The notes under the pieces are model-generated. The model saw nothing but the letters and a program-made list of their open reading frames with translations. It was not told the DNA's origin and did not search any database. The position numbers and the translations under genes were made by a program. DNA of 64,000 bases from Seleniivibrio woodruffii (lineage in GTDB: Bacteria; Chrysiogenota; Deferribacteres; Deferribacterales; Geovibrionaceae): the NCBI RefSeq assembly GCF_004339245.1, contig NZ_SMGG01000005.1, positions 124,001 through 188,000 of the forward strand, written 5' to 3'. Below are positions 37,363-39,176 of the stretch, one piece after another. The first letter of the stretch is position 1. Each line of letters opens with the position of its first letter.

Positions 37363-37713
37363 ATGAATATCTTATATGTTGAAGATGAGAAGTTCACGAG
37401 AATGCTGGTTAAAAAGCTTCTCGAAAAAGAGGAACTTAATGTCTGGGAAGCTGCGAACGGCGTTCTCGGCCTGAAGAAGTTTCTCGAAGTAAAGCCTGAC
37501 ATCATTATAACAGACCTCGCCATGCCCGAGATGGATGGTTTTGAAATGATTCTCAAAATAAGAGAACACGATCCGAAAATCCCCATAATAATCACCACTG
37601 CATACAGAGAAGAAGCGGCAAGGGTTAACGCACAGGTTACGGCCTGTATCTATAAACCCATTATAAAAGAAGACCTTATAGCCGCCATTAACAACATTCA
37701 GCAATCGGCCTGA
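37363..37713 (+). CDS. Single-domain response regulator (CheY-like)
   Basis: The protein is 116 residues long and consists only of a receiver domain. The acidic pocket is Glu7-Asp8, the phosphoacceptor Asp51 (IIITDLAMPEMDG), the switch Thr lies in IIITTAY, and the conserved Lys is in CIYKPI. It has no output domain, so it acts by protein contact. The kinase partner is not identifiable from the neighbourhood; the divergent HDOD gene is a possible functional neighbour. aroF and its promoter follow downstream. Confidence 0.9.
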   Translation: MNILYVEDEKFTRMLVKKLLEKEELNVWEAANGVLGLKKFLEVKPDIIITDLAMPEMDGFEMILKIREHDPKIPIIITTAYREEAARVNAQVTACIYKPIIKEDLIAAINNIQQSA

Positions 37714-37723
37714 TTTTTTTATG

Positions 37724-37752
37724 TTGACATGGCGTCCGGATTGGAATATTTA
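37724..37752 (+). promoter_or_regulatory. Sigma-70 promoter of the aroF attenuator leader
   Basis: A perfect TTGACA (37724-37729), a 17-base spacer and TATTTA (37747-37752). Transcription should start near 37759, just before the leader peptide. The tRNA-Phe promoter at 39050-39078 has the same -35, spacing and -10. Confidence 0.85.
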
Positions 37753-37784
37753 GCACTATTGAACACACGGAGATAAATTTACAA

Positions 37785-37859
37785 ATGCTCGGCAGACTTT
37801 TTTATGGATTCTTTTTTGGTTACTTTTACTTCTTTAGCCATAGGGGTGTAGCCGTCTGA
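37785..37859 (+). CDS. Phe/Tyr-rich leader peptide of aroF attenuator
   Basis: A 24-codon reading frame starts at ATG 37785, with GGAG at 37769-37772, and ends at TGA 37857-37859. Residues 6-17 read FYGFFFGYFYFF, so ten of twelve are Phe or Tyr (seven Phe, three Tyr in the peptide). This is the classic design of attenuation leaders such as pheL: when charged tRNA-Phe or tRNA-Tyr is scarce the ribosome stalls, an antiterminator forms and the downstream gene is transcribed. The gene controlled is DAHP synthase, the entry step to aromatic amino acids. Confidence 0.85.
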   Translation: MLGRLFYGFFFGYFYFFSHRGVAV

Positions 37860-37861
37860 AT

Positions 37862-37896
37862 CCGGTCTGTCCATTGAGATAAGATTTTTAAGACCG
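37862..37896 (+). promoter_or_regulatory. Antiterminator pairing of the aroF attenuator
   Basis: CGGTCT (37863-37868) is the exact complement of AGACCG (37891-37896). The latter overlaps the 5' arm of the terminator (37894-37899), so the two stems are mutually exclusive. The first arm lies just after the leader stop codon, where a stalled ribosome upstream would leave it free. CAGAC at 37793-37797, early in the leader, could pair with GTCTG (37865-37869) as the protecting 1:2 stem. Confidence 0.7.
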
Positions 37897-37927
37897 CGGC
37901 GGCTGCAAAGGCTTCCGCGGTTTTTTT
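37894..37927 (+). terminator. Attenuator terminator upstream of aroF
   Basis: CCGCGG (37894-37899) pairs with CCGCGG (37915-37920) and is followed directly by seven T. It lies between the leader peptide and the aroF start (54 bases before the ATG). Confidence 0.88.
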
Positions 37928-37980
37928 ATGCCTGCGGAGGCGCTTGAAGTCGCTGAAAATTTAAATACCGGAGGTATAAA

Positions 37981-38997
37981 ATGATAGTTGTAATGAAGAT
38001 CGGAGCCAAACAGGAGGCCATCGCCAGGGTCATAGAGACCGCAGAGGAGATAGGCTTCAGCGCCCATATCATCGAGGGCAAGGAAAGGGTCGTCGTCGGC
38101 CTTGTCGGCGTGGACGGCCAGCGGGACAAGATGATAACGATGGGCGAGATGGACGGCGTCGACAAGATCATCCCCATCAGCAAGCCCTACAAGCTCTCCA
38201 GCCGTGAAGTCAAAAACGAACCCACCATCGTTGACTGCTGCGGAGTTCTCTTCGGAGGAGAACACATACCCGTCATAGCAGGCCCCTGTTCAGTTGAATC
38301 TGAAGAACAGACAATCAAAACAGCAGAATTCGTCAAAGCCGCAGGTGCATCGATGCTCAGAGGCGGTGCATTCAAACCCCGCACATCCCCCTATGCATTC
38401 CAGGGTCTCGCCGAAGAGGGGCTTAAAATCCTTGCGAAGGCAAGAGAGGTGACCGGACTTCCCGTTGTGACAGAGGTTACAAACCCCAAATATGTCGATA
38501 TGGTATACAAATACGCAGATATGTTCCAGGTGGGCGCACGCAACATTCAGAACTTCGCCCTGCTGACCGAGCTGGGCAAGACAGACAAGCCCGTTCTGCT
38601 TAAAAGGGGTATGTCTACCACAATCGAGGAATTTCTCACTGCGAGCGAATATATCCTTTGTGAGGGCAATAAAAACGTCATCCTCTGCGAGAGAGGACTG
38701 AGAACGTTCGAAACAGCAACAAGGAACACTCTGGACATCAGCGCAGTACCGGTTATAAAGGCGAAGAGCCATCTGCCCATAATGATAGACCCCAGCCATG
38801 CCGCCGGACACTGGCAGTATGTTGGGCCGCTCAGCAAAGCCGCAGTGGCCATAGGGGCAGACGGACTTATCATCGAGGTGCACCCCAACCCCGAAAAAGC
38901 ATGGTCCGACGGAGCACAGTCGCTCACGCCGACACAGTTCATCGAGCTGATGGGCAGCCTCCGTTCGATAGCACTCGCTGTCGGAAGAACGATTTAA
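37981..38997 (+). CDS. aroF: 3-deoxy-7-phosphoheptulonate (DAHP) synthase, type I beta
   Basis: The enzyme condenses phosphoenolpyruvate and erythrose-4-phosphate to DAHP, the first step of the shikimate pathway. The 338 residues have an N-terminal ferredoxin-like regulatory domain (about 1-70, ACT-related, as in Thermotoga DAHP synthase) and a TIM barrel with VIAGPCSVES, LRGGAFKPRTSPYAFQG, VLLKRGMSTTIEEF, CERGLRTFE and MIDPSHAAGH, which include the metal ligand Cys and the substrate Lys/Arg residues. The regulatory domain allows feedback inhibition by Tyr or Phe. GGAGG lies seven to eight bases before the ATG. Transcription is controlled by the Phe/Tyr leader attenuator upstream. Confidence 0.95.
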   Translation: MIVVMKIGAKQEAIARVIETAEEIGFSAHIIEGKERVVVGLVGVDGQRDKMITMGEMDGVDKIIPISKPYKLSSREVKNEPTIVDCCGVLFGGEHIPVIAGPCSVESEEQTIKTAEFVKAAGASMLRGGAFKPRTSPYAFQGLAEEGLKILAKAREVTGLPVVTEVTNPKYVDMVYKYADMFQVGARNIQNFALLTELGKTDKPVLLKRGMSTTIEEFLTASEYILCEGNKNVILCERGLRTFETATRNTLDISAVPVIKAKSHLPIMIDPSHAAGHWQYVGPLSKAAVAIGADGLIIEVHPNPEKAWSDGAQSLTPTQFIELMGSLRSIALAVGRTI

Positions 38998-39103: not shown

Positions 39104-39176
39104 GCCCAGGTAGCTCAGTCGGTAGAGCAGTGGACTGAAAATCCACGTGTCGATGGTTCGATTCCGTCCCTGGGCA
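39104..39176 (+). tRNA. tRNA-Phe (anticodon GAA)
   Basis: A complete cloverleaf: acceptor GCCCAGG/CCTGGGC, D arm GCTC-AGTCGGTA-GAGC, anticodon stem GTGGA/TCCAC with loop CTGAAAA (anticodon GAA), and T arm with TTCGATT. CCA is not encoded. The 3' part (from 39135) is repeated at 46836-46879, because the integrative element used this gene as its insertion site and restored the 3' end. Confidence 0.95.

Follow-up and report, generated by a model that had tools for sequence, protein, structure and literature searches.

Among described systems, the closest to the locus analyzed here is aroR-aroF of Corynebacterium glutamicum. Its aroR leader encodes Phe-Tyr-Phe ahead of a DAHP synthase gene, and stalling at the aromatic codons raises transcription (Neshat et al. 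2014, as reported in PMC11802643; the leader is also listed in PMC4046766). In the account given by PMC11802643, citing Neshat 2014, Phe limitation raises transcription of aroR-aroF and Tyr availability is immaterial. The enterobacterial attenuators of pheA (pheL), pheST, and trp (trpL) resemble the present locus in having four segments, a codon run in segment 1, and an arm shared between antiterminator and terminator, but they control terminal-branch or tRNA-synthetase genes. In Escherichia coli, according to PMC11802643, aroF and aroH are repressed by TyrR/TrpR. Furthermore, attenuators have been predicted before I-beta DAHP synthase operons of Thermus and others (PMC1173090), and the uORFC-13-1 motif upstream of aroF in Acholeplasma is predicted to combine an intrinsic terminator with a short ORF containing Phe codon(s) (PMC8632094). 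That motif shares with our locus a predicted Phe-codon ORF and an intrinsic terminator before DAHP synthase. However, it is a separate motif of 24 sequences, is found in Acholeplasma and environmental sequences only, and has as its codon content only at least one Phe codon (PMC8632094). Because attenuation of DAHP synthase is on record for C. glutamicum and has been predicted for Acholeplasma, Thermus, and others, this type of switch is already known.

We examined a candidate of this type in a window of 64 kb, by which we mean the whole stretch of Seleniivibrio woodruffii DNA that was analyzed. An earlier reading of its letters (the sequence-only reading) had proposed ribosome-mediated attenuation upstream of aroF. 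As in aroR, a Phe/Tyr-codon leader lies in front of a DAHP synthase gene; however, C. glutamicum is an actinobacterium, its leader has another sequence, and three aromatic codons are reported for it in the source cited above versus 10 here. From the sequence analysis below, we conclude that the DAHP synthase gene is very probably (at a probability of about 0.93) under the control of a four-segment ribosome-mediated transcription attenuator in this region. Its additions to what is known are the distribution of the switch, a long antiterminator within the ORF, predicted leaderless starts, and a lineage-specific codon mix.

The aroF leader and its alternative pairings

The features of the locus, in order along the window, are as follows.

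37724-37752, plus strand: promoter, with -35 TTGACA (37724-37729), a 17-nt spacer, and a weak -10 TATTTA (37747-37752)
37769-37772, plus strand: Shine-Dalgarno-like GGAG of the leader ORF, read from the sequence, 12 nt 5' of the ATG
37785-37859, plus strand: leader peptide ORF, read from the sequence, 24 codons with an ATG start, encoding MLGRLFYGFFFGYFYFFSHRGVAV
37791-37823 (about), plus strand: segment 1 (anti-antiterminator), with GGCAGAC, GGATTC, and GGTTAC blocks, overlapping the sensor codons and present in the full-leader MFE fold
37848-37868, plus strand: segment 2, antiterminator 5' strand, GTAGCCG.CTG (last ORF codons) plus CGGTCT; an equivalent strand ends the leader ORF in 23/23 orthologues
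37891-37906, plus strand: segment 3, antiterminator 3' strand and terminator 5' arm, supported by native versus genus-swapped pairing
37892-37927, plus strand: intrinsic terminator (segments 3:4) and U tract, hairpin GACCGCGGCGGCTGCAAAGGCTTCCGCGGTT at 37892-37922 and then T-rich, -19 to -21 kcal/mol
37981-38997, plus strand: aroF, DAHP synthase type I-beta with a ferredoxin-like N-terminal domain (PF18152, PF00793, NF006421), preceded by GGAGG (37970-37974)
39104-39176, plus strand: tRNA-Phe (anticodon GAA), with its own TTGACA, ~107 nt 3' of aroF

The sensor run of the leader ORF comprises codons 6 to 17 (37800-37835), 10 of which encode Phe or Tyr. Among ORFs of at most 60 amino acids on both strands of the 64-kb window, this density is unique to the aroF leader, the runner-up having 7. 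When the intergenic region was subjected to mononucleotide shuffling, 0 of 20,000 shuffles rose above 8 aromatic codons. The aromatic richness of the leader ORF is therefore far beyond chance. The sequence-only reading had placed ten Phe/Tyr codons among twelve here, and it had both the ORF and its coordinates right. It had also called the promoter perfect, which holds for the -35 TTGACA but not for the -10: the best hexamer at 17-nt spacing, TATTTA, matches the consensus at 3 of 6 positions and was not among the sites listed by a consensus promoter scan.

The gene downstream had been named as a DAHP synthase with a ferredoxin-like domain, an identification borne out by the matches to PF18152, PF00793, and NF006421. 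The enzyme catalyzes the committed step of the pathway that makes the amino acids read by the leader codons. The tRNA-Phe gene lies next to aroF in 5/5 genomes of the window's genus and 2/3 of its sister genus (7/8 together); we regard it as a neighbor and do not claim that it belongs to the switch.

Between the leader ORF and the DAHP synthase gene sits the terminator hairpin, present where the sequence-only reading had it (37892-37922) at -19 to -21 kcal/mol. Its 5' arm is also half of a second structure. CGGTCT (37863-37868) pairs with AGACCG (37891-37896), and GTAGCCG.CTG (37848-37858) pairs with CGG-CGGCTGC (37897-37906), giving a bipartite 2:3 antiterminator helix of ~16 bp with a duplex energy of -25.5 kcal/mol. 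The six-base antiterminator described earlier is thus a real pairing, but it is merely the distal half of this longer helix. The antiterminator competes with the terminator arm, segment 3 being common to both folds. Because it uses the last codons of the leader (37848-37858), the C terminus of the peptide is itself antiterminator sequence. A segment 1 for a competing 1:2 hairpin is also present, a feature absent from the sequence-only reading; its pairing energy is -26 kcal/mol. In its MFE fold, the full leader adopts the termination state, with 1:2 and 3:4 paired (z = -3.1). A gap of 12 nt separates the end of the last aromatic codon from the antiterminator strand, which itself contains the stop codon, and this spacing fits attenuation. 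Every feature of a ribosome-mediated attenuator that sequence can test is present at this locus.

We also looked for comparable leaders elsewhere in the same genome. Five consecutive Phe/Tyr codons occur at 28 places; on inspection of these, the aroF leader alone resembled a leader. The best other candidate for a second aromatic leader, before thrS (L047), was rejected, as it sits upstream of the thrS promoter. The genome has a second DAHP synthase (51% identity) near a pheA gene (L002, G000:C3:362675-363682, and L170), with no aromatic leader before it. Likewise, none was found at the pheA operons of relatives, where pheA and the second DAHP synthase were covered.

Conservation in the order and competing explanations

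Among 59 related genomes searched, orthologues (70 to 96% identity) turned up both in the window's own family and in related families of the order. We examined 23 with complete upstream DNA, the window included, from 8 genera. All 23 carry TTGAC[AT] at the equivalent position, a leader ORF rich in aromatic codons (8 to 10 of 12) despite differing leader sequences, a terminator between leader and gene, and a foldable antiterminator made of the leader end and the terminator 5' arm. In one family of the order (L030 to L032), the DAHP synthase copies have no aromatic leader. In one relative (L010, genome G011), the DAHP synthase match contains one in-frame TAG, an assembly error or a broken gene, and the leader-to-gene distance is ~110 nt longer.

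Because a MAFFT alignment of the antiterminator region was misregistered by one base between genera, we preferred a comparison of native with swapped duplexes to column counts. Using 8 genus representatives and 20,000 permutations of between-genus swaps, we found that the summed native energy was reached by 2 permutations for the 2:3 pairing and by 1 for the 1:2 pairing. Two-sided changes include AGCCG/CGGCT versus AACCG/CGGTT and GCCGC/GCGGC versus GCTGC/GCAGC. Base composition may contribute to the swap result, which is therefore strong but not conclusive. Single pairings are weak in two relatives (2:3 in L025, 1:2 in L011), and in several members of the window's genus the antiterminator fold by itself is just modestly better than shuffles. 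Between genera, the C-terminal residues of the leader change (GVAV, RGAA, CRLR, RYTA, GEAA), and because both antiterminator strands change together, these residues track the RNA pairing. The sequence-only reading had staked its case on relatives keeping the aromatic codons and the stems. The codons, antiterminator, and terminator are kept in 23/23 and the pairings change in concert, which supports its proposal of ribosome-mediated attenuation.

These results bear on four other explanations. The hairpin might instead terminate transcription of the response-regulator gene upstream (37363-37713), with the aromatic ORF a chance product of a T-rich stretch; that gene lies on the same strand and ends ~180 nt before the hairpin, and the interval showed no other terminator. 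However, the conserved TTGACA separates it from the hairpin, 10 of 12 aromatic codons arose in 0 of 20,000 shuffles, and leader and hairpin are kept together in 23/23 orthologues with pairings that co-vary, making this explanation very unlikely. A T-box or metabolite riboswitch governing the terminator deserves mention, given that T-boxes control aromatic genes in Firmicutes, but we consider its probability close to nil. The ORF nearly fills the region and leaves no space for a separate sensor domain, and Rfam yielded nothing for the leader at gathering score and nothing relevant at E up to 10. The T-box model gave no match, and the Phe_leader and Trp_leader models likewise gave none at gathering score or at E up to 10.

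The remaining two explanations accept the leader ORF but assign it another role. A short, hydrophobic, and highly aromatic peptide could act in the manner of TnaC, so that the ribosome is stalled by the peptide itself, with free Phe or Tyr as ligand, instead of by a shortage of tRNA. Specific residues are normally retained in arrest peptides; here, the order and spacing of the aromatic residues, the N terminus, and the C terminus vary widely among genera, and the C-terminal residues follow RNA pairing and not any peptide motif, so that nascent-peptide arrest is scarcely credible. Alternatively, attenuation may occur but with the terminated leader RNA or the peptide acting mainly in trans, as for rnTrpL/peTrpL of Sinorhizobium meliloti (PMC7298713), since termination would free an RNA of ~165 nt that carries an ORF. 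However, the cis switch accounts fully for the conservation, and the peptide sequence is not maintained from one genus to another; a mainly trans-acting product is improbable.

Proposed mechanism and amino acids sensed

In the proposed attenuator, RNA polymerase would begin near 37759 and a ribosome would translate the leader ORF. With ample charged tRNA-Phe (and tRNA-Tyr), the ribosome would get to the stop codon and cover segment 2, because the antiterminator strand consists of the ORF's last codons and stop. Segment 3 would then fold with segment 4, and transcription would terminate at ~37925. When charged tRNA-Phe, and probably also charged tRNA-Tyr, is scarce, the ribosome would be expected to stall within 37800-37835 and mask segment 1, leaving segment 2 free 12 nt past the last aromatic codon. 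Segment 2 could then pair with segment 3 (~16 bp), which would block the terminator and allow aroF to be transcribed. With translation absent, the 1:2 hairpin would form and termination would be the default. We infer the stalling and the read-through from the arrangement of codons and pairings, and the response would lie not with the enzyme but with how far the tRNAs are charged while the leader is translated.

We likewise infer which tRNA is sensed and how much Phe counts relative to Tyr, although sequence alone does not separate a Phe from a Tyr response. The 23 leaders total 193 Phe, 62 Tyr, and 1 Trp codons, and one of them (L012) has zero Tyr codons. Because of this Phe excess and the response of C. 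glutamicum aroR to Phe and not to Tyr, as described in PMC11802643, Phe would be expected to dominate. Phe is therefore probably the main signal, and a Tyr response is possible. The sequence-only reading had proposed a response to both amino acids; the codon totals, the Tyr-free leader, and the Phe-specific aroR precedent weaken its Tyr half.

The start of translation may differ between genera. For 18 of the 23 orthologues, the predicted -10 is followed after 5 to 7 nt by an in-frame start codon, at the expected first base of the transcript; the -10 positions are themselves predictions, made from TTGAC[AT] plus 17 to 18 nt. The leader ORFs of most relatives thus appear, by prediction, to be leaderless. 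The window's genus (5 genomes) has 21 to 43 nt between -10 and start, and within this stretch a GGAG- or GAGG-like sequence occurs in the window and GGAG or GAGG in the other four genomes as well. A known example is the leaderless trpL of S. meliloti (PMC7298713), whose leader ORF starts at the first base of the transcript, as predicted for most of the window's relatives. However, that leader has Trp codons and precedes trp genes, and the window's genus has a short 5' untranslated region with GGAG.

Similar leaders outside the order

We extended the comparison to DAHP synthase loci of outgroups, 79 in all. Of these, 17 have a leader in which at least 7 of 12 codons are aromatic; the reverse strand gave 2 such cases, and shuffling gave 0 of 395. 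In the Desulfuromonadia, which we take to be the class of Geomonas propionica, 28/30 DAHP synthase loci reach at least 7 aromatic codons, versus 0/30 on the reverse strand. Among 29 Desulfuromonadia loci analyzed further, a terminator was present in 29/29, an antiterminator from the leader's C-terminal codons (often RPSAR) was significant (p <= 0.05) in 27/29, and leaderless-like spacing was seen in 19/29. Such leaders occur at 7/28 loci in Calditrichota (reverse strand, 2/28) and at 4/30 in Acidobacteriota (reverse strand, 0/30). Taking the surveyed loci together (L061 to L140 and L171 to L260), F/Y/W leaders followed by terminators are found before DAHP synthase in almost every sampled member of the Desulfuromonadia and in some of the Calditrichota, Acidobacteriota, and others.

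The three most distant members of the window's phylum (L027 to L029) have Phe/Tyr/Trp leaders (YFWQYYFF, YFWQFYFF, and AFFWQYYF). One of them, L029, has two terminator-like hairpins before the gene. Trp codons are thus frequent beyond the window's order; within the order, the sensor run has none.

It is possible, although we hold this tentatively and at less than even odds, that I-beta DAHP synthase genes across phyla share an old attenuator, often with an ORF start at the first base of the transcript and an antiterminator in the last codons, whose sensed set has been retuned by lineage. The lineages concerned are the window's order, the Desulfuromonadia, probably Chrysiogenota-like lineages, and lineages of the Calditrichota and Acidobacteriota. 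In this scheme, the sensed set would be Phe/Tyr only in the window's order and Phe/Tyr/Trp elsewhere.

A literature search for attenuation in the Deferribacteres found none. With the aroF leader, attenuation by a leader peptide is placed at the shikimate pathway's first committed step, and this in a phylum without such reports in the literature searched. Its 24-codon ORF is small enough for annotation to miss, and similar leaders are common before the same enzyme elsewhere. With many comparable relatives, lineage differences in the mix of Phe, Tyr, and Trp codons offer a way to test to which aromatic amino acid a branch-point enzyme is truly tuned. If the shared attenuator is true, it would be a widespread and largely unannotated control point at the entry to the shikimate pathway.
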